Shown one piece after another: positions 19,967 through 28,689 of a stretch of DNA of 64,000 bases. Under the pieces are notes generated by a model. That model had not been told where the DNA came from. It saw only the letters and a program-made list of their open reading frames with translations, and searched no databases. The position numbers and the translations under genes were made by a program. Source of the DNA: Aurantibacter aestuarii (GTDB taxonomy: Bacteria; Bacteroidota; Bacteroidia; Flavobacteriales; Flavobacteriaceae); NCBI RefSeq assembly GCF_003008425.1, contig NZ_PXOQ01000007.1:310001-374000 (forward strand). The letters run 5' to 3'. Positions within the stretch are counted from its first letter, which is position 1; each line of letters opens with the position of its first letter.

Positions 19967-20323
19967 TTGTAGTTTTAGTCTATTGGGCTCACGACTGTTT
20001 AAAGCTTTTAACTAATTATTTAACAAGTAAGGTGTTATTTCCCGATTGTCTCCTGATTGTTGCCTCATGTCTAGTTCTGGAAAAACGATGTTATTTTATA
20101 GTCTTTAAAAACAAATAAAGTAGATACATACTCCTTTTTATTAAATAATAAATACAAAGTATTATTTTTTTATATTTTTTGTGTCCTCTAAATTATTGGC
20201 GCTTTTGCAACTACAAAAAATTATAGCTAATAATAATATCTTTTTCATGTAATACTGATTTTAAATTTAGTAAACCAATATTACAATGTTATAAAGTTTT
20301 GAATGTACCAAATAACAAGATAG
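19967..20323. other. AT-rich intergenic region upstream of the radical SAM gene
   Basis: 357 bases between the AraC-type regulator and the radical SAM gene, both on the minus strand. Apart from the 28-codon ORF at 20162-20248 I see no gene, no tRNA-like fold and no strong terminator after the regulator. The promoter of the radical SAM gene should lie in the left ~190 bases, but no good TTG/TAnnTTTG pair is visible. Confidence 0.4.
20162..20248 (-). CDS. Tiny lipoprotein-like ORF (28 residues), possibly truncated
   Basis: A complete short frame, ATG to TAA, reading MKKILLLAIIFCSCKSANN then LEDTKNIKK. The first 14 residues are a good lipoprotein signal (KK, a hydrophobic run, then FCSC), leaving a mature part of only about 15 polar residues. 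It may be a real lipopeptide, or the 5' remnant of a lipoprotein gene whose body was deleted; the following ~190 AT-rich bases show no continuation in any frame that I can follow. It lies between and co-directional with the AraC regulator and the radical SAM gene. Confidence 0.4.
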   Translation of the reverse strand: MKKILLLAIIFCSCKSANNLEDTKNIKK

Positions 20324-21466
20324 TTACAAATTCTGTACATCTTTTTTATACTGCAATGGTGTCTTTTTCACGTGTTTTTTAAAGACTGCATAAAAACTGG
20401 TTTTGGAATTAAAGCCAGCTTCTAACCCAATAGATTCTAAAGTATAGTTATTATAAGCTACATTTTTAAGCATCCTTTTTGCATCTTTAACACGTAGCGT
20501 ATTTAAAAAATCATTAAAGTTTGAATCTGAATTCTTATTAATTAATTGAGAAATATAACCTTCGCTTAAATCTAATTTTAAAGCTATTTTTTTTAAACTC
20601 ATCTTCGGGTCAAGATGTAGTTTTTCATTTAAAATTAAACCAATAACATTTTTGTACGCCTCTTTTCCTTCTTGAGGTATCATTTTAATCGACTTAGCTT
20701 TTTTAGATTTTTGAATTCTAACTTGTCGTAATTGTATTCTTTCTTTTAATTCTAAGGATTTATTAATTCCTACATAACCAATCCAGTAAATCAATAGGGA
20801 AATTATAATCCAAAGCGGATAAAATAAAACAGAAGTATTTTTATTTAATATTAAAATAATACAGATAGCTATTAACCAAGCAACACAAATAAGCAGCCCA
20901 ATGCATATTAATTGTTTTAACCAACTTGTTTGAGCCTTTATAATATTTAGGGTTAGTATATCTTTTTTTTCGTAAATAATTATTGATTTATAGCTAAGTA
21001 TAATTAGTAGGATATTAAAACAAATAGAGGCTAATTCTAAATAAACGAACAAACCATTTTCAAAATGTGAAGGAAGTAGATATAATTTATTAATAAACAA
21101 GCTATAAACACTTTGGATAGTATATAAAATTGATACAATTAAAAAAGGCAGTATTAGTAAAAACTGCCTTTTTAAAGTTATTTTATTTCCTATAAATTTA
21201 TTGACATACATATAGAACATTGGTAACACTAACCAATGAAAAGGAATAAAAACATATTTTATGAAGCTATACTTTTCGGTTATTTTAGTGTCTAAAAACC
21301 AATACTGTAAATTACTTAAAGATAGAAACAACACAATTAATGCTAAATAGATAGTATTATTTGTAATAAACTTCTTCTTACTTAGAACAACTGTGCTAAA
21401 AATTAATCCATTAACAATTCCTGAAAATATTAGAAGATTAAATACATTGAAATTTAATTGTCCCAT
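20324..21466 (-). CDS. Membrane-anchored AraC-family transcriptional regulator
   Basis: A 380-residue protein with roughly seven N-terminal membrane segments (residues ~8-240, e.g. LLIFSGIVNGLIFSTVVLS and YPLWIIISLLIYWIGYVG). The C-terminal AraC/XylS HTH covers ~275-375: MSLKKIALKLDLSEGYISQLIN is the first helix-turn-helix and YTLESIGLEAGFNSKTSFYA the second, followed by KKTPLQY. This layout is common in Bacteroidota and suggests a signal sensed in the membrane. Its start codon directly abuts the stop of trhO (no spacer), so it is translated from the trhO message. The target genes are unknown; the co-directional radical SAM genes downstream are candidates. Confidence 0.85.
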   Translation of the reverse strand: MGQLNFNVFNLLIFSGIVNGLIFSTVVLSKKKFITNNTIYLALIVLFLSLSNLQYWFLDTKITEKYSFIKYVFIPFHWLVLPMFYMYVNKFIGNKITLKRQFLLILPFLIVSILYTIQSVYSLFINKLYLLPSHFENGLFVYLELASICFNILLIILSYKSIIIYEKKDILTLNIIKAQTSWLKQLICIGLLICVAWLIAICIILILNKNTSVLFYPLWIIISLLIYWIGYVGINKSLELKERIQLRQVRIQKSKKAKSIKMIPQEGKEAYKNVIGLILNEKLHLDPKMSLKKIALKLDLSEGYISQLINKNSDSNFNDFLNTLRVKDAKRMLKNVAYNNYTLESIGLEAGFNSKTSFYAVFKKHVKKTPLQYKKDVQNL

Positions 21467-22546
21467 TTAATCCTTTAACTTATCTTTTTTCAAGACTTCA
21501 AAGATGTTTCGTAAATCTTTTTTATAAGGTAAATGGTCTGCGCGTCCTTTTTTAAAGATATCGTTACTATTTGCTTGACCTTTTCTTAATTCTTTTTGTT
21601 CTTCATAAGGTAAGGCGTGTATTTCTTTACAGCTGGTAGAACAGCAATTATTCATTTCTTCTTTACAAGCATCACATTGCAAGAATAATAAATGGCAGGC
21701 ATCGTTTGCACAATTAGTATGAACATCATGTGGTGCACCGCATTGGTGACATTTAGCAATAACATCGTCACTAATTTTTTCGGCACGACGATCGTCAAAC
21801 ACAAAATTCTTCCCTATAAATTTATTTTCAATGCCCTCTTCATTGACTTGTCTAGTGTACTCAATTATACCACCTTCTAATTGATACACATTTTTAAAGC
21901 CTTTATGTTTGTAATAAGCACTCGCTTTTTCACAGCGTATACCACCCGTACAATACATTAATAGGTTTTTATCTTCTTTATGATCTCGCAAATCGGCCTC
22001 AATAATATCTAAACTTTCACGAAACGTATCCACATCTGGGGTAACTGCACCATTAAAATGGCCAATTTCGCTCTCATAATGGTTACGCATATCTACACAA
22101 ACCGTATTGGGGTTAGAAAGCATTTCATTAAATTCCTTAGCAGAAAGATGAATTCCTTTATTGGTCACATCAAAAGTGTCGTCGTTTAAACCGTCTGCTA
22201 CAATTTTATCTCTAACCTTAACTTTCAGTTTTAAGAAAGACATATTATCCTGCTCTACAGCAATATTTAAACGGATATCCTTCAAAAAATCGATACTATC
22301 CAGATGGTTTTTAAAGGCTTCAAAATGATCGGCTGGTAAAGATAATTGTGCATTAATCCCTTCATGAGCCACATAAATACGTCCTAAAACGTCTAAATTG
22401 TTCCATGTAATAAATAAATCGTCTCGTAATTGTTGTGGGTTGCCAATTTGAGCATAGACATAAAAAGATAAGGTTAACCGGTCTTTTCCTGCTTTTTCAA
22501 TAAGTTCTGCTCGTTCTTTGGCGCTTAATTTGTTGTACAGTTGCAT
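21467..22546 (-). CDS. trhO: tRNA uridine(34) hydroxylase, rhodanese type
   Basis: Oxygen-dependent enzyme of the TrhO/YceA family that makes 5-hydroxyuridine at the tRNA wobble position. The N-terminal acylphosphatase-like domain (SFYVYAQIGNPQQLRDDLFI and GRIYVAHEGINAQLSLP) is followed by the rhodanese domain. Its catalytic loop is CTGGIRCEKASAY (Cys199 and Cys205) and GFKNVYQLEGGI follows. The C-terminus carries the Cys-rich cluster CHQCGAPHDVHTNCANDAC and further Cys pairs, as in long TrhO proteins. The 359 residues are normal. It is transcribed together with the AraC regulator immediately downstream. Confidence 0.93.
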   Translation of the reverse strand: MQLYNKLSAKERAELIEKAGKDRLTLSFYVYAQIGNPQQLRDDLFITWNNLDVLGRIYVAHEGINAQLSLPADHFEAFKNHLDSIDFLKDIRLNIAVEQDNMSFLKLKVKVRDKIVADGLNDDTFDVTNKGIHLSAKEFNEMLSNPNTVCVDMRNHYESEIGHFNGAVTPDVDTFRESLDIIEADLRDHKEDKNLLMYCTGGIRCEKASAYYKHKGFKNVYQLEGGIIEYTRQVNEEGIENKFIGKNFVFDDRRAEKISDDVIAKCHQCGAPHDVHTNCANDACHLLFLQCDACKEEMNNCCSTSCKEIHALPYEEQKELRKGQANSNDIFKKGRADHLPYKKDLRNIFEVLKKDKLKD

Positions 22547-22583
22547 GCTATACTAAGTTTTTAAGGTTAAAGAATAATTTTTG

Positions 22584-22591
22584 CAAAGGTA
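22584..22591 (-). promoter_or_regulatory. Putative -7 element of trhO
   Basis: TACCTTTG on the minus strand, a full match to TAnnTTTG, 38 bases before the trhO start. The -33 position has TTT rather than TTG, so this is a half-supported call. Confidence 0.4.
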
Positions 22592-22630
22592 GAATATAAT
22601 TTTAGATATAAAAACCCGCTTATTTTAAAC

Positions 22631-22668
22631 AAAAAAAAAGTCCCTTACGACGATCGTAAAGGACTTTT
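22631..22668 (-). terminator. Terminator of an unannotated minus-strand transcript
   Basis: A 15-bp stem (AAAAGTCCTTTACGA / TCGTAAGGGACTTTT on the minus strand, one wobble) is followed by nine T. No annotated-size gene lies upstream of it on this strand before recA, so it implies a short transcript, which fits the 30-residue ORF at 22723-22815. The stem also pairs worse in the plus direction. Confidence 0.85.
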
Positions 22669-22676
22669 AATAGACT

Positions 22677-22724
22677 AACTCGTTATTAATTTTTTAAATT
22701 TTTATTTAAAAAATGTTACGAGTT
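22677..22724 (-). repeat. 48-base AT-rich imperfect hairpin in the 3' end of the small ORF
   Basis: Outer arms AACTCGT (22677-22683) and ACGAGTT (22718-22724) and inner arms ATTTTTTAAAT (22689-22699) and its complement (22704-22714) enclose a 4-base loop. The outer arm includes part of the stop codon of the 30-residue ORF. It is separate from, and upstream of, the GC-containing terminator. Confidence 0.7.
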
Positions 22725-22815
22725 ACCCTCCATCGGCTTTACAGCTGCTATTTACTAAAATAGAGACTGAAACGCCTAATGCTTTAAATTGAACTATTTT
22801 TCTTAAATATCTCAT
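22723..22815 (-). CDS. Small peptide gene (30 residues), lipopeptide- or toxin-like
   Basis: ATG to TAA frame reading MRYLRKIVQFKALGVSVSIL then VNSSCKADGG. It has a basic N-terminus, a hydrophobic stretch of about 13 residues, then NSSC and a five-residue polar tail. This looks like a signal peptide for a lipoprotein whose mature part would be only CKADGG, or a short membrane-active peptide. Support for a real gene is the structured 3' end: a 48-base hairpin that covers the stop, then a strong terminator, with nothing else on that strand to terminate. Translation is not proven, and I recognise no family. Confidence 0.5.
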   Translation of the reverse strand: MRYLRKIVQFKALGVSVSILVNSSCKADGG

Positions 22816-22994
22816 AATTAACAACTAAAAATTAAAGAGATGTTGTTTTAAAATAGGAGGAATAATTTTCTTTTTCACAGCAATAATTTCCCTATTTATT
22901 AAATAGATGCATAAACTTTAAAAAGGTTGCGTCTTAGATTAAAAAAAAATAAAATAGTTGTATTTTAGCCTTACATTTATAGAAATAAGTTATT

Positions 22995-23999
22995 ATGAGC
23001 AATGAAAAAGAAGGAAAATTAAAAGCATTAAAATTAACCTTAGATAAATTAGACAAAGCTTACGGGAAAGGCACCGTCATGAAAATGAGTGATGCTGCTG
23101 TTGTTGATGTAGATGCTATCCCAACAGGATCTTTAGGTCTAGATATTGCTCTAGGGGTTGGTGGATATCCTAGAGGTCGTGTTATAGAAATTTATGGTCC
23201 AGAATCTTCAGGTAAAACCACTTTAACCTTACATGCAATTGCAGAAGCGCAAAAAGCTGGAGGCATTGCTGCCTTTATAGATGCAGAGCATGCATTTGAT
23301 CGTTTTTATGCAGCTAAATTAGGAGTTGATATAGATAATTTAATTATTTCTCAACCAGATAATGGAGAACAAGCATTAGAAATAGCAGATAATTTAATAC
23401 GCTCTGGAGCAATTGATATTGTTGTTATAGATTCTGTTGCTGCTTTAACACCTAAAAGCGAAATAGAAGGAGAAATGGGAGATTCTAAAATGGGATTACA
23501 TGCCCGTTTAATGTCTCAAGCTTTAAGAAAACTTACCGCTTCAATTAGTAAAACCAATTGCACTGTAATTTTTATTAACCAGTTACGAGAAAAAATTGGG
23601 GTTATGTTTGGAAACCCAGAAACAACAACTGGAGGTAATGCCCTTAAATTTTACGCGTCTGTTCGTTTAGATATTCGTCGTTCAACTCAAATTAAAGATA
23701 GTAATGGTGAGGTTATGGGTAATAAAACTAAAGTAAAGGTGGTTAAAAATAAAGTGGCACCACCATTTAGAACTGCTGAATTTGATATAATGTATGGCGC
23801 TGGAGTCTCTAAAGTGGGAGAAATCTTAGATGTCGCTGTAGAAATGGAAATCGTTAAAAAGAGTGGGTCTTGGTTTAGTTATGAAGAGACCAAACTTGGG
23901 CAAGGAAGAGATGCTGTAAAAGCTATTATTGAAGATAACCCAGAATTATTTGATGAACTGGAACAAAAAATTAAATCTCAACTCAAAGAATTGGCTTAA
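22995..23999 (+). CDS. recA: Recombinase RecA
   Basis: Forms ATP-dependent filaments on single-stranded DNA for strand exchange and SOS-type signalling. Walker A GPESSGKT is at residues 68-75; [19 protein letters not shown] (Walker B), the L1/L2 DNA loops ([14 protein letters not shown] and [20 protein letters not shown]) and [11 protein letters not shown] are all present. The 334 residues are a normal bacterial length with a short C-terminal tail. Single gene with its own terminator. I saw no LexA-type operator upstream, which fits Bacteroidota where the SOS box differs. Confidence 0.98.
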
Positions 24000-24003
24000 T
24001 TTT

Positions 24004-24034
24004 AAAAAAATCTCGTGTTAAACGAGATTTTTTT
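24004..24034 (+). terminator. Terminator of recA
   Basis: A 13-bp perfect stem (A7 then TCTCGT and its complement ending in T7 and more T) with a 5-base loop, beginning 5 bases after the recA stop. Confidence 0.92.
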
Positions 24035-24088
24035 TATTTACACGCAACCTTTTTGTAAATTAAGTATCTTAATATCAAAGACCTATTT

Positions 24089-24502
24089 ATGAAAAAGAAT
24101 GTTTTATACATTTTACTCTGCTCCTTTTTTGCCCTATCCTGCAGTGTAGATGATGATAGTATTGAAGATTACCAGCAGTTGTTACCAGTAGATAATGTAA
24201 TTATACCACAGACAGTAGAAGTGGGCGTAGCTGAAGATATTATTATTAATTATAATAGACCAACAAACTGTCATGCGTTTAATGATATTTATTATGCTAA
24301 AAACACTAATGAAAGAACTGTGGCTATTATAAGCACCTATTTTGCAAGTAATGGTAACTGTTCTCCATTAAATGCAAACACAGAAGCCTCTTTTCGTTTT
24401 AAAGCCGAGGAGGAAGGAACTTATGTGTTTAAATTTTGGCAAGGTAAGGATGATAACGATCAAGATGTATATTTAACATATGAAGTGGAAGCTATAGATT
24501 AA
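24089..24502 (+). CDS. Hypothetical lipoprotein upstream of sigma factor
   Basis: A 137-residue lipoprotein (MKKNVLYILLCSFFALSC, Cys18, then an acidic VDDDSIED stretch of the kind that directs Bacteroidota lipoproteins to the surface, though here an Asp-rich rather than KDDD motif). The mature part is beta-rich (VEVGVAEDIIINYNRPTNCH and FRFKAEEEGTYVFKFWQG), with two Cys that may form a disulphide. I recognise no family. It lies 20 bases before the ECF sigma gene, so it may be the first gene of that operon. Confidence 0.7.
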   Translation: MKKNVLYILLCSFFALSCSVDDDSIEDYQQLLPVDNVIIPQTVEVGVAEDIIINYNRPTNCHAFNDIYYAKNTNERTVAIISTYFASNGNCSPLNANTEASFRFKAEEEGTYVFKFWQGKDDNDQDVYLTYEVEAID

Positions 24503-24522
24503 TAACTAAACACCTGATTAAT

Positions 24523-25074
24523 TTGAGTTTGGAGCAACTCATACAAAAATGTAAATTAAATGATACTAAAGCACAAAGTGAATTATATAAACTCTTTTCG
24601 AGTAAATTATTTACTGTATGCTTGAAGTACTCAAGAAGCTATGCCGAAGCTCAAGATAATTTACAGGATGCTTTTTTGTTAATTTTTGAAAAAATAAATC
24701 AATATAATCATCAAGGCTCTTTTGAAGGATGGCTTAAAAGAGTTACTATAAATAATACATTACAACGTTATAGAAAAACATCTGTTTTCAAAATTGTAGA
24801 TGAAGAGCAAATTGAAGACAAAACAATAGACATTAATGATGACGAAACTGAAGACATTCCTTTACAGTTTTTATTGGAATGTATTCAAAATTTACCCGAC
24901 CGCTACAGAATGGTTTTTAACCTTTATGTTATGGATGGGTTTTCGCATAAAGAAATAAGCGATTTATTACATATTACAACCGGCACCTCTAAATCTAATT
25001 TAAATAGAGCTCGGGTATTATTAAAAGATCGTGTAAACCAGTATAAAACAAGACAAAATTCTCATAATTCATAA
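24523..25074 (+). CDS. ECF-type RNA polymerase sigma factor
   Basis: A 183-residue sigma-70-family factor of the extracytoplasmic-function class. Region 2 (ELYKLFSSKLFTVCLKYS, then DNLQDAFLLIFEKINQY and FEGWLKRVTINNTL) and region 4 (LPDRYRMVFNLYVMDGFSHK, EISDLLHITTGTSKSNLNRA) are complete. The start appears to be TTG at 24523: MSLEQLIQKCK matches the family N-terminus and no in-frame ATG precedes the conserved region. Its stop directly abuts the ATG of the following anti-sigma-like gene, so the pair is expressed together. Confidence 0.9.
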   Translation: MSLEQLIQKCKLNDTKAQSELYKLFSSKLFTVCLKYSRSYAEAQDNLQDAFLLIFEKINQYNHQGSFEGWLKRVTINNTLQRYRKTSVFKIVDEEQIEDKTIDINDDETEDIPLQFLLECIQNLPDRYRMVFNLYVMDGFSHKEISDLLHITTGTSKSNLNRARVLLKDRVNQYKTRQNSHNS

Positions 25075-26763
25075 ATGAGCCAAAAAAAACACATAGACCG
25101 ACTGTTTCAAGAAAAGTTTAAAGACTTTGAAGCTACGCCAGACAAACAAGTTTGGAAAAATATAGAGAAACAACTTCAAAAGAACACATCAAATACTACT
25201 CCAAAATTAATACCTATTTGGTCAAGGATTTCTGGTATTGCTGCTGCGTTGATTGTACTATTAACCTCGGGTATTTATCTATATACTTCAACCAACACAT
25301 CACCTGTCATAAATACAAAGTCTAATAAAGAAGATTCAAAAATCACTCTAAACAAACAGTCTAAGCTAAATGAAATTAATACTTCAGAAAGTAATGGCAA
25401 AGTTGTTTACAATTCTTCGGATGATAAGAAATTAAACCACCAAAATTACGATAGCTCAAACAATACAGATGTATCTGTAACGGATAAAAATGTTAGTAAA
25501 AATAAATTAAACACAATTAACAGTTCCACAACTAACGACGGATTAGTTAATAATAATTCTTCAAAAGAAATTCTAATTTCGCCAAATTCTAAACATAACA
25601 TAGATAATAAAACACTTAAATTAAATAACACTAAAGAGGAACGTTATAGCAACAAACTTCAAAAAAATACTAAAAATAATTCATCCAATACTTCAAATAA
25701 AGACCAATTGGTAAATAGCACTTCATTAAATAACCATTTATCGACCAATACAAACAAGAGTATTAAAAACTATACAAATACTGCAAATAACACACTTAAT
25801 AAGTTAAGTGCTTCAACATTAAAAAAACAAAACTCAACTAAAGTATTAGAAAAGAATTCATCTTTTAGTTCTAACTATTCTAGAAAGCAAACCACCACAA
25901 ATTCTAACAAAACATTATATGGAGTGTCAAAACCGTTGGTTTTATTAGCTCCAGATTCAATTTCAAGCTATAATATTATAATAAGAGATGCTAAAAGTAT
26001 AGAAGCCGCTATAGCAGAAAGTAAAAAGTTACTAGAAAAAGAAAAAATTGGTCACAGGTGGTCTGTTTCTCCAAATATTGCACCTGTATATTATAACTCT
26101 TTTGGAGAAGGATCTCAATTTGGAAGCCAGTTTAATAACAATAGTAAAAGTGGAGAGGTTAACACCAGTTACGGAGTTTCTGTAGGATATACTGTAAATA
26201 AAAAAATTAAAGTACGTACTGGTATAAATAAATTAAACTTAAGTTATGATACGGACGATGTTATTGTTTTTGAAAGCGTGAGCAACACTAAACCGGACTC
26301 TTTTATGAATATCGATTTTTATTCTTCTGTTAACAATCAAGGGGTAAGTGTAATTAGTGCAGATAATTTAGCCATACAACAAATTAATAGTGAATTAAAC
26401 TTTAACGCTGCTCTAAGTCAACGAATTAGTTATTTAGAGGTACCCGTAGAGCTTGAATATACTTTAAGTAATTCTAGATTTGGGGTAAGTATAATTGGTG
26501 GTTTAAGTACTTTTCTATTAGAAAATAATTTAGTAGTTTCGGAATTTGATGGCTATAAAACGGATATAGGAGAAGCTAACAATATAAATAATGTTAGTTT
26601 TAGCACAAATTTAGGTTTAGGGTTAAATTATAAGTTTAGTAAATCTTTTATTTATATATTTGAGCCAACATTTAAATATCAAATTAACGGGTTCTCAAAC
26701 ACCTCGGGTAATTTTAACCCATATATTATTGGTGTCTATACAGGATTTAGTTACAAATTTTAG
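25075..26763 (+). CDS. Anti-sigma-like membrane protein fused to an outer-membrane beta-barrel domain
   Basis: 562 residues in three parts. Residues 1-50 (DRLFQEKFKDFEATPDKQVW, EKQL) look like the cytoplasmic sigma-binding segment of Bacteroidota anti-sigma proteins. One membrane helix follows at ~52-72 (ISGIAAALIVLLTSGIYLY). Residues ~75-290 are an extreme Asn/Ser/Thr/Lys-rich low-complexity linker, and ~320-562 is a beta-rich outer-membrane-type barrel (YGVSVGYTVNKKIKVRTGIN, LGLGLNYKF) ending in YKF. Taken literally it would run from the cytoplasm to the outer membrane. It directly abuts the sigma factor gene, which supports the anti-sigma role; the role is inferred, not shown. Confidence 0.75.
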   Translation: MSQKKHIDRLFQEKFKDFEATPDKQVWKNIEKQLQKNTSNTTPKLIPIWSRISGIAAALIVLLTSGIYLYTSTNTSPVINTKSNKEDSKITLNKQSKLNEINTSESNGKVVYNSSDDKKLNHQNYDSSNNTDVSVTDKNVSKNKLNTINSSTTNDGLVNNNSSKEILISPNSKHNIDNKTLKLNNTKEERYSNKLQKNTKNNSSNTSNKDQLVNSTSLNNHLSTNTNKSIKNYTNTANNTLNKLSASTLKKQNSTKVLEKNSSFSSNYSRKQTTTNSNKTLYGVSKPLVLLAPDSISSYNIIIRDAKSIEAAIAESKKLLEKEKIGHRWSVSPNIAPVYYNSFGEGSQFGSQFNNNSKSGEVNTSYGVSVGYTVNKKIKVRTGINKLNLSYDTDDVIVFESVSNTKPDSFMNIDFYSSVNNQGVSVISADNLAIQQINSELNFNAALSQRISYLEVPVELEYTLSNSRFGVSIIGGLSTFLLENNLVVSEFDGYKTDIGEANNINNVSFSTNLGLGLNYKFSKSFIYIFEPTFKYQINGFSNTSGNFNPYIIGVYTGFSYKF

Positions 26764-26815
26764 TTCTAGGTTTTTAGTTGGTTAAACTTTTACTATATGC
26801 TAAGTCCGACACCAA

Positions 26816-26851
26816 GAAAGGCAATTCTCTCGAATTGCCTTTCATTTTTTT
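26816..26851 (+). terminator. Terminator of the sigma/anti-sigma operon
   Basis: An 11-bp perfect stem GAAAGGCAATT / AATTGCCTTTC with a 6-base loop, then A and T7, about 50 bases after the stop. Confidence 0.88.
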
Positions 26852-26872
26852 ACCCGTTATGTCTTTGCTTTT

Positions 26873-27604
26873 TTAGTAGTTTATTAATTTATTGTAAATT
26901 ATCATTTTAGTTTTTTCATTTAATGCCTTAGTACCTTTTATATCTAGAGTATCTGTTTTTATAAAAGAATGTATATGGGCTCTCATTTGTCCTGGAGAGC
27001 CGCTAAAAAATGTGTAAGAAAACCTTTTTTTATTATCTGGAAAAGTTAATGGAACAATTGGAATTTTATGATTTATAGCTAATCTAAAAGCTCCATCCTT
27101 AAATTCGTCTAATAAAATAGATTCTTCAGGCACGCCACCTTCAGGGAAAATACAAATACTTAACCCTTGTTTTAATCGTTTTTGCGCTCTTAAAAACACA
27201 GCTTGTCTACTTTTTGTGCTGTTTCTATCTACCAATATAGATGTACGCTTATAAAAAAAACCGAAAACCGGAATTTTAGCTAATTCTGCTTTACCAACAA
27301 ATACAAATGGATTTTTAATAACCACCAGCATAAGCATAATATCTGTCATTGAAGTGTGGTTAGCAACAAACATATAGCTTCTATGAGGTTCTGGAATAGC
27401 ATCCTTTGTAATTTTTATATGAAAACCCATCCCAAATAATATAATTTTAGACCAAATACGTGCCATTCTAAAAAAATACGGGTACCAAGTTTCTTTTAAA
27501 ATTGAGATAATTAAAAAAGGAAACATTACTAAAATTGGTAATGCTAGTAAAACATAAAACCAGATTCTATAAAGTAACCAAAAAAGAATTTTAAACCATT
27601 TCAT
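26873..27604 (-). CDS. plsC: 1-acyl-sn-glycerol-3-phosphate acyltransferase
   Basis: Membrane enzyme that acylates lysophosphatidic acid to phosphatidic acid. Two N-terminal hydrophobic segments (~residues 3-36) are followed by NHTSMTD (His83-x4-Asp88), the catalytic HX4D motif. KAELAKIPVFGFFYKRTSIL (motif II) and FPEGGVPEE (motif III) come next, then IVPLTF (motif IV). The 243 residues are normal. It is divergent from trpS with about 116 bases between; a TAGATTTG -7 match lies immediately upstream at 27612-27619 on the minus strand, implying a very short leader. Confidence 0.92.
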   Translation of the reverse strand: MKWFKILFWLLYRIWFYVLLALPILVMFPFLIISILKETWYPYFFRMARIWSKIILFGMGFHIKITKDAIPEPHRSYMFVANHTSMTDIMLMLVVIKNPFVFVGKAELAKIPVFGFFYKRTSILVDRNSTKSRQAVFLRAQKRLKQGLSICIFPEGGVPEESILLDEFKDGAFRLAINHKIPIVPLTFPDNKKRFSYTFFSGSPGQMRAHIHSFIKTDTLDIKGTKALNEKTKMIIYNKLINY

Positions 27605-27646
27605 ACAATGCCAAATCTAGCTATTTTTATTGAACTATTTTCTTTT

Positions 27647-27674
27647 TTGAGTCCATACAAATAAATTACCTTTG
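27647..27674 (+). promoter_or_regulatory. Promoter of trpS
   Basis: TTG (27647-27649), a 17-base spacer and TACCTTTG (27667-27674), full matches to both Bacteroidota sigma-A elements. The leader to the ATG at 27721 would be about 40 bases. Confidence 0.6.
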
Positions 27675-27720
27675 CTTTTAAACTAAATATTGAAAATCGC
27701 CTAATTTGAAGAATTAAATT

Positions 27721-28689
27721 ATGTCTAGAATACTTACAGGAATACAAAGTACAGGAACGCCACATTTGGGTAACATTTTAGGAGCTTTAATACCTGCTAT
27801 AGAAATGGCAAATAATCCAGAAAATGAATCTTTTTTATTTATTGCCGATTTACATTCCTTAACACAAATTAAGGACGCTAAAGTAATGAGAGAAAACACT
27901 TACTCTACTGCAGCAGTTTGGCTTGCTTTTGGTTTAGATATTGAAAAAACAGTGTTTTACAGACAAAGTGATGTCCCACAGGTAACAGAACTAACATGGT
28001 ATTTAAGCTGTTTCTTTCCATACCAGCGTCTAACATTAGCACATAGTTTTAAAGATAAAGCTGATAGACTAGAAGATGTTAATTCAGGCTTATTTAGTTA
28101 TCCAATGCTTATGGCTGCCGATATTTTGGCGTATGATGCAGAAATTATTCCGGTAGGTAAAGACCAGTTACAACATATTGAAATGACCAGAGATGTAGCA
28201 TCTCGTTTTCATGCAAAACTAGGTGAAACCTTTGTGCTTCCAGATGCCAAAATTCAAGAAAATACTATGCTAATTCCTGGAACAGATGGTTCTAAAATGA
28301 GTAAAAGTAAAGGCAACACTATAAATGTTTTTTTAGCTGAAAAACAATTACGCAAGCAAATTATGTCTATTGAAACAGACAGTACCGCTTTAGAAGACCC
28401 TAAAGACTGGACTACTTGTAATTGTTTTGCTATTTATAGTTTACTAGCTTCTGATAATGAAATTAAAATCATGAAAGCCAATTATGAAAATGGAAATTAT
28501 GGTTATGGACATGCCAAGCAGGCATTATATGAATTAATTTTAGACAAATTTTCTACTCAAAGAGAGCGTTACAATTATTACATGAGCAATTTAGATGAAA
28601 TTGATAATACTTTGGCTATAGGCGCTGAGAAAGCTAGTACGGTTTGTAATAGTGTTATAAAACGCGTAAGAGGTAAAGTAGGGTATTAA
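27721..28689 (+). CDS. trpS: Tryptophan--tRNA ligase
   Basis: Class I aminoacyl-tRNA synthetase that charges tRNA-Trp. The HIGH-type motif is PHLGN (from residue 14, after TGIQSTGT), and KMSKS occurs at 192-196 (GSKMSKSKGN). FIADLHSLTQ and MAADILAYDAEIIPVGKDQLQHIEMTRD are typical of TrpRS. The 322 residues are the usual bacterial size. Single gene with its own promoter and a bidirectional terminator. Confidence 0.97.
   Translation: MSRILTGIQSTGTPHLGNILGALIPAIEMANNPENESFLFIADLHSLTQIKDAKVMRENTYSTAAVWLAFGLDIEKTVFYRQSDVPQVTELTWYLSCFFPYQRLTLAHSFKDKADRLEDVNSGLFSYPMLMAADILAYDAEIIPVGKDQLQHIEMTRDVASRFHAKLGETFVLPDAKIQENTMLIPGTDGSKMSKSKGNTINVFLAEKQLRKQIMSIETDSTALEDPKDWTTCNCFAIYSLLASDNEIKIMKANYENGNYGYGHAKQALYELILDKFSTQRERYNYYMSNLDEIDNTLAIGAEKASTVCNSVIKRVRGKVGY

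Follow-up and report, generated by a model that had tools for sequence, protein, structure and literature searches.

A stretch of 64,000 nucleotides from the Flavobacteriaceae species Aurantibacter aestuarii (contig NZ_PXOQ01000007.1, positions 310,001 to 374,000; the window below) carries a gene for an extracytoplasmic function (ECF) sigma factor directly followed by a gene for a 562-residue protein. Sequence comparison supports that this protein is a Dma-type anti-sigma factor, related to Dma members at both ends, and the pair probably constitutes a sensor in which a tether joins two membranes and from which the sigma factor would be released to promoters containing CGCAACC. A sequence-only reading of the window had proposed that one polypeptide connects an outer-membrane event to sigma release; this equals the model published for Dma proteins, as far as the available part of that description goes (PMC13088901), and the kinship at both ends speaks for it. 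That reading had posed the insertion of one protein in both membranes as an open puzzle, for which a model, a single Dma protein spanning both, was already in print for Bacteroides (PMC13088901). The two-membrane anti-sigma architecture is known; what our sequence comparisons appear to add is the profile kinship, the family-wide spread, the promoter and its likely regulon, two micropeptides, a split form, and a non-ATG sigma start.

In the proposed mechanism, the ECF sigma factor would be kept at the inner membrane by the N-terminal helices of the 562-residue protein, whose membrane helix would lead into a long disordered tether running through the periplasm to an OmpA-like barrel of eight strands in the outer membrane. 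Events that disturb the outer membrane, be it a ligand, loss or misfolding of the barrel, or cleavage of the tether, would free the sigma factor, which would then transcribe its own operon and mostly outer-membrane lipoprotein genes from CGCAACC-N14-GYATCT.

Predicted architecture of the 562-residue protein

An AlphaFold2 model of the protein, built on an alignment of 52 rows, contains helices at residues 5-19 and 24-38, a membrane helix at 48-71, a short helix at 309-322, and eight long strands over 329-562. The predicted local distance difference test (pLDDT) score was about 30 across most of residues 73-306 and mostly 90-98 in the strands, with weaker values of 66-86 around 401-450; the mean over the whole protein was 62.5. 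Asn, Ser, Thr, and Lys make up 59% of residues 72-326, as against 35% of the remainder. Foldseek ranked OmpA first for the barrel model, and VIA-align gave a Z of 15.9 against OmpA (170 residues, root mean square deviation 2.7); NspA, OmpW, and OprF also appeared among its top ten rows. The C-terminal domain is predicted with high confidence to be an outer-membrane barrel of the eight-stranded OmpA kind rather than a soluble fold. The protein itself had no useful match in Pfam, NCBIfam, or PHROGs, and two of nine relatives scanned passed the Pfam cut-off for OMP_b-brl_2. Pfam up to E 1 returned neither a FecR nor an RseA match, and a barrel is predicted, so that the protein was assigned neither to the FecR-type anti-sigma/sensor proteins nor to the RseA-type anti-sigma factors.

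Most of what the sequence-only reading had seen in this protein was borne out. Its anti-sigma-like segment at the N-terminus corresponds to two helices, and the N-terminal profile matches Bacteroides-side relatives; its single membrane helix was placed by the model, in agreement with the hydropathy maximum; and its outer-membrane-type barrel ending in Phe agrees with the OmpA-like model and with a terminal Phe in all 101 aligned rows described below. The linker is rich in Asn, Ser, and Thr as described there (the 59% includes Lys), but the length of about 215 residues did not stand, since about 235 residues are disordered and 255 lie between the membrane helix and the barrel. Structure prediction of the C-terminal region, which that reading had named as a check, returned the eight-stranded barrel, and the alternative it had offered, a soluble C-terminal domain, is disfavoured by this high-confidence model.

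Relationship to the Dma family

In the published description, a Dma protein begins with an anti-sigma domain, continues through a membrane helix into a long disordered tether, and ends in a barrel; Dma genes lie beside ECF21 sigma genes and are confined to Bacteroidota. Dma1 and Dma2 control vesiculation in Bacteroides thetaiotaomicron (Pardue et al. 2026; PMC13088901). When the barrel profile was compared with that of 20 Bacteroides-side relatives, the match reached 98.9% (E 2e-17, 148 columns, 18% identity), and the N-terminal profile matched that of 19 such relatives at 98.7% (E 2e-16, 76 columns, 14% identity). The DUF4943 model had matches in three of 247 genomes, and two loci (L251 and L252) carry a sigma gene, a Dma gene for 351-356 residues, a DUF4943 gene, and two more genes that by eye fit the published Dma2 order. 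The Dma relatives in the order sigma-Dma-DUF4943 listed as L263 and L264 are these same two loci, and their Dma2 genes were reached by profile-profile comparison only. The tether measures approximately 108-168 residues in the 20 Bacteroides-side relatives, estimated from one alignment, and no tether below about 108 was seen among 121 proteins, as expected if it must reach across the periplasm.

Conservation and distribution

Of 299 genomes of the family, 241 contain a relative of the 562-residue protein, and 15 of 20 genomes among the misses listed were of 2.2 Mb or less. The gene neighbourhood was compared in 80 named loci, the best-scoring relatives when named genomes were scanned and biased towards close relatives; Bizionia, Lacinutrix, Winogradskyella, and Xanthomarina are represented. 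The sigma gene abuts the Dma gene on the same strand in all 80, and a homologue of the small lipoprotein gene upstream of the sigma gene and recA are neighbours in 78 and 77 of them, respectively. For residue conservation, the window and 110 loci gave 101 distinct aligned rows after 10 duplicates were dropped; the start and the barrel are conserved across these rows and the middle is not, with linkers of 169-324 residues (median 219) and barrels of 235-249. Likewise, 51 relatives 33-50% identical to the query are strongly conserved at both ends and not in the middle, which excludes chance. The N-terminal stretch DR.FQEKFKDF...P....W..I belongs to the best conserved stretches of the protein, and D8, R9, F11-F18, P22, W27, and I30 are invariant across 52 rows.

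A family profile run over 296 genomes of the phylum matched in 76. Matches outside the family were much weaker, yet some frames there matched at both ends. A literature search for Dma-like proteins in Flavobacterium yielded nothing beyond a citation of the founding Dma paper, which reportedly appeared in PNAS in 2024 (10.1073/pnas.2321910121).

The sigma gene and its predicted contact with Dma

The sigma gene product exceeded the Pfam cut-offs for Sigma70_r4_2 (8e-16) and Sigma70_r2 (2e-10). Dma-associated sigma genes are classed as ECF21 in the literature (PMC13088901); the libraries searched here yielded no ECF21 model. The sequence-only reading had placed the sigma gene at 24523-25074 directly against the long gene, and both frames lie there, with the ATG of the Dma gene immediately after the sigma stop codon. 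The codon aligned to the sigma start in 80 relatives is GTG in 43, TTG in 36, and ATG in one; the TTG start in the window was accepted because this codon is non-ATG in 79 of the 80. Some earlier in-frame start exists in six of the 80, being ATG in three of these. An ATG opens the Dma gene in 79 of the 80 loci, and the remaining one (AAA) is a mis-set start. A sigma gene with a weak start, ahead of an anti-sigma gene with a strong one, would leave the sigma factor in the minority.

The two genes share a frame and have no gap between them, and when the intervening TAA is translated as Gln, the sigma factor and Dma residues 1-76 form a single chain. A model of this chain, based on an alignment of 15 paired rows (that of the window included) and 18 sigma rows, had a mean pLDDT of 83 and a predicted template modelling score (pTM) of 0.72. 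Dma residues 7-36 scored 88-95 in it, whereas residues 1-40 scored 61-79 when Dma was modelled by itself, the two alignments being different. The three closest chains in the PDB were SigW bound to RsiW, with template modelling (TM) scores by target of 0.64-0.67; among the rows listed, other anti-sigma-bound ECF factors scored 0.43-0.61 and polymerase-bound ones 0.32-0.43. The read-through model supports, but does not prove, that the N-terminus of Dma holds the sigma factor. It goes part of the way towards the refuting condition set by the sequence-only reading, a lack of affinity between residues 1-50 and the sigma factor.

Promoter motif and candidate regulon

Between recA and the lipoprotein gene, ACGCAACC-N14-GCATCTA was found with at most three mismatches in 68 of 76 upstream regions, exactly in 42. 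A second copy of the motif, divergent from recA, was present with at most two mismatches in 63 of 78 recA-upstream regions, and in five other genomes the motif stands directly before the sigma gene, 76-89 bases away. The consensus CGCAACC-N14-GYATCT has the look of an ECF promoter. Genome scans used the 27-base pattern CGCAACC-N-TTT-N10-GYATCT, which occurs exactly in 88 of 149 family genomes, whereas the reversed pattern occurs in none of the 149. The window has two matches with at most three mismatches, both exact, against 0.84 expected by chance, and 21 of 100 shuffles also reach two; by itself this count proves nothing.

The genome of A. aestuarii contains three exact sites: one before the operon, one divergent from recA, and one 141 bases upstream of a gene that by eye encodes an amidohydrolase-like lipoprotein (L122, 1501-1527). 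With at most two mismatches, six sites (three exact, one with one mismatch, two with two) compare with five for the reversed control. Only the exact sites can therefore be relied on; the site with one mismatch (L123, 1501-1527), upstream of a lipoprotein gene and a barrel gene above the OMP_b-brl cut-off, is a candidate.

Genes behind the motif elsewhere were surveyed in 70 loci taken by eye, from among the matches listed, as lying away from recA; eight of these are the sigma/Dma locus, leaving 62. The 70 loci hold 71 motif sites, six without an ATG frame of 25 codons within 150 bases. The other 65 include 17 frames shorter than 60 codons, ten of which encode a 28-residue peptide treated below, and 48 longer frames, from which one sigma gene and five own-lipoprotein frames at sigma/Dma loci were dropped. 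A lipoprotein rule was satisfied by 35 of the 42 frames of at least 60 codons that remained, or by 33 after exclusion of two (L173 and L213) that by eye resemble ordinary signal peptides; in the background, 87 of 1275 frames of 60 codons and 28 of 601 frames of 100 codons pass. By eye, SusC- and SusD-like proteins are among the candidate targets, as are LVIVD-like lipoproteins. This arrangement is consistent with autoregulation of the operon and with a putative regulon of outer-membrane lipoproteins.

The SM6 motif of Flavobacterium psychrophilum was considered as the same motif and rejected, as it has a CGT box at -10 (PMC9723704); this paper was the only one found in the literature on ECF sigma factors, Flavobacteriaceae, and lipoproteins. 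Literature searches for such a promoter with lipoprotein and small-protein terms found none, and in one paper examined that combines GCAACC with a sigma factor and Bacteroid, the letters belong to a probe.

Micropeptides behind the motif

Downstream of the divergent motif, 34 of the 63 motif-bearing regions, that of the window included, contain a 27- to 30-codon frame whose product ends in Cys-x-x-x-Gly-Gly, mostly as (S/N)CKADGG, with NSSCKADGG in 19. Among 21 distinct 30-codon versions, differences in the last nine codons fall at codon positions 1, 2, and 3 in the numbers 114, 78, and 554, a third-position excess such as translation and selection on a peptide would produce. Across its full length the bias is less marked (1536, 1213, and 2326). 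The coding pattern for CKADGG followed by a stop occurs once each in 25 of 149 genomes and never in the control. Among the matches listed, the exact motif lies shortly before it in 19 of these 25 genomes and is missing in four, the other two falling beyond those listed. The Cys...Gly-Gly frame is missing in the other 29 of the 63 motif regions, many of them from Winogradskyella, and the 5' end of the divergent transcript region is partly conserved; because of these two observations, a regulatory RNA rather than a peptide is kept in play as the product of the divergent promoter. Rfam gave five matches over window positions 20000-28000, all under the gathering score and taken as chance. In several rows of this first micropeptide the residue before the Cys is Asn, a poor fit to the lipobox that a lipoprotein would have.

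A second peptide, of 28 residues with one hydrophobic helix and mostly ending in SVNKKTEP or SVNKKTDP, stands behind the motif in ten of the 62 loci (L139, L141, L149, L166, L167, L170, L174, L184, L200, and L208). Neither micropeptide is familiar to us; no literature search by peptide sequence was made.

Split form and reuse of the anti-sigma domain

The genome also contains a split relative (L257, 1356-3714; contig G000:C4, ~1047.2-1049.5 kb), in which an ECF sigma gene is followed by a short anti-sigma gene and a separate barrel-like gene. The anti-sigma factor has 236 residues, no barrel, and a Dma-type N-terminus (hidden Markov model (HMM) E 4.6e-6); the 355-residue downstream protein is barrel-like by eye, with no Pfam match over the cut-off. 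Two loci from other families (L248 and L249) show the same three-gene order, with N-terminal domain HMM E values of 1.9e-12 and 2.9e-12, and their downstream barrel gene lies above the OMP_b-brl_2 cut-off in L248 and below it in L249. The existence of a three-gene counterpart argues that both ends of the fused protein serve one pathway, and since the fused and split forms share the anti-sigma domain, one may have given rise to the other.

At a further locus (L247), the same N-terminal domain heads a long protein (a 752-codon open frame) beside an ECF sigma gene. This protein had no match to the Dma barrel: the N-terminal anti-sigma domain is also combined with other periplasmic parts.

Organization of the locus

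Features of the locus are collected in Table 1. A Pfam search with the small lipoprotein up to E 1 gave no match.

Table 1. Features of the sigma-Dma operon and of the region divergent from recA, in window coordinates
Feature	Position	Strand	Basis
Predicted ECF-type promoter CGCAACC-N14-GYATCT of the lipoprotein-sigma-Dma operon	24043..24069	+	Exact match
Small lipoprotein gene that opens the operon, 20 bases 5' of the sigma gene	24089..24502	+	Lipobox by eye; homologue in the same place in 78/80 named loci
ECF sigma factor, Das-like, TTG start	24523..25074	+	Pfam region 2 and region 4 above cut-off
Dma-type anti-sigma factor, 562 residues	25075..26763	+	Profiles, conservation, predicted structure
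Cytoplasmic helices, residues 1-38, proposed sigma binder, with DR.FQEKFKDF...P....W..I	25075..25188	+	Conservation and sigma-Dma model
Single membrane helix, residues 48-71	25216..25287	+	AlphaFold2 model; hydropathy maximum at residues 45-70
Predicted disordered periplasmic tether, residues 72-326	25288..26052	+	Low pLDDT over 73-306
Short helix ahead of the barrel, residues 309-322	25999..26040	+	Model; partly conserved though the rest of the tether is variable
Predicted eight-stranded outer-membrane barrel, residues 327-562	26053..26760	+	AlphaFold2, Foldseek, VIA-align
Terminator-like hairpin 3' of the operon	26816..26843	+	Four such in the region vs 1.6 expected from shuffles
Second predicted ECF-type promoter copy, divergent from recA	22905..22931	-	Exact match
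Putative 30-residue micropeptide ending in NSSCKADGG, behind the second promoter	22723..22815	-	Frame conserved in relatives
Terminator-like hairpin after the micropeptide frame	22636..22668	-	Same hairpin scan (four vs 1.6 expected)

Points against the sensor model and alternative explanations

Several observations weigh against a two-membrane sensor with the regulon proposed above. By rough scaling, a tether of 255 residues would as a free coil span only about 14 nm, which calls for a stretched tether or, possibly, a cleaved protein. The family profile missed both Dma2-order genes at E 0.001, although the 296 genomes searched included both of theirs, and such barrels and the N-terminal domain each also occur in non-Dma proteins, so that the kinship rests on their combination. 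The predicted contact with the sigma factor is drawn from pLDDT and a read-through construct whose alignment is unlike the full-length one. An exact copy of the motif is absent from 61 of the 149 family genomes, the lipoprotein rule was devised after the sequences had been seen and is also passed by 8 of 111 sigma frames, and it is by position only that this sigma factor would be paired with this promoter; the genome has nine other places with sigma region 2 (PF04542), one of them of primary type by length.

In one alternative explanation, the tether is cut in the mature cell, an ordinary single-pass anti-sigma factor stays in the inner membrane, the barrel is set free as an outer-membrane protein of its own, and the fusion only equalises synthesis of the two. 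The lack of conservation in the linker sequence and the split form with separate genes, found in this genome too, would suit such a cut, whereas a cleaved linker could shrink, and none below about 108 residues was seen in the 121 proteins; the Bacteroides model, in its available description, also takes one protein through both membranes (PMC13088901). We consider the cut tether unlikely. A second alternative, with which the lack of a Pfam barrel match in the protein itself would agree, takes the C-terminal domain for a beta structure that is soluble or periplasmic, and the protein for an ordinary inner-membrane anti-sigma factor with a large periplasmic sensor. It is highly improbable in view of the eight long strands with pLDDT mostly 90-98, the places of OmpA, NspA, OmpW, and OprF near the top of the structural matches, the terminal Phe in 101 of 101 rows, and the two of nine relatives that passed the OMP_b-brl_2 cut-off.

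The nine further PF04542 places leave a modest chance that CGCAACC-N14-GYATCT belongs to another sigma factor that also drives the operon, the regulon of the Dma pair being different or smaller. Against this stand the presence of the motif ahead of the sigma/Dma operon in 68 of 76 upstream regions and autoregulation, which is usual for sigma/anti-sigma pairs. In Bacteroides, moreover, das2 rose by 4.54 log2 units upon deletion of dma2 (PMC13088901). Overall, the tethered two-membrane sensor is the likely explanation, with a sigma factor that probably reads the CGCAACC promoters itself.

Implications and comparison with known systems

The Dma design is a rare case of a single protein thought to occupy two membranes, and the occurrence of a relative of the 562-residue protein in 241 of 299 family genomes suggests a common readout of the outer membrane, far from the gut species in which the design was discovered. 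With a sharp promoter motif and candidate targets, the question of what Dma senses and does becomes testable, and the conserved micropeptides and the split form offer handles on mechanism and origin. In a broader interpretation, to which we give slightly less than even credence, the Flavobacteriaceae Dma pair would be a widespread, recA-linked system of outer-membrane surveillance. Its CGCAACC regulon would be dominated by lipoproteins and include the two conserved micropeptides, one or both of which might affect the envelope or exert feedback on the barrel, and the fused and split forms, which share the anti-sigma domain, might derive one from the other.

In FecI/FecR/FecA cell-surface signalling, an outer-membrane event is reported to an ECF sigma factor by three proteins, with a TonB-dependent receptor as the sensor. 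The system described here resembles it in leading from an outer-membrane event to an ECF sigma factor and differs in that one protein is proposed for both jobs. Closer to it is the sigma/anti-sigma pair M0N98_03761/03760 of Phocaeicola vulgatus (Evans et al. 2022), whose anti-sigma factor is likewise predicted to cross the periplasm with an outer-membrane barrel, and whose sigma gene is induced by the envelope-harming toxin BcpT, likely via envelope stress (PMC9308784). Activation of that pair lengthens the O-antigen (PMC9308784).

The Dma/Das systems of B. thetaiotaomicron (Dma1/Das1 and Dma2/Das2) share the domain plan and the adjacent ECF sigma gene, and the Dma1 target NigD1 falls in a group termed putative lipoprotein (PMC9308784). 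The tether is approximately 108-168 residues long in the 20 Bacteroides-side relatives and 169-324 in the proteins aligned here, and the Dma2/Das2 order of sigma, Dma, and DUF4943 differs from the order of recA, lipoprotein, sigma, and Dma in the window. The available part of the published Dma description contains no CGCAACC-type promoter or micropeptide (PMC13088901). The split systems (L257, L248, and L249) have in common with the fused one the N-terminal domain and the sigma gene upstream of it, and they differ in that the anti-sigma factor and the barrel are separate proteins.

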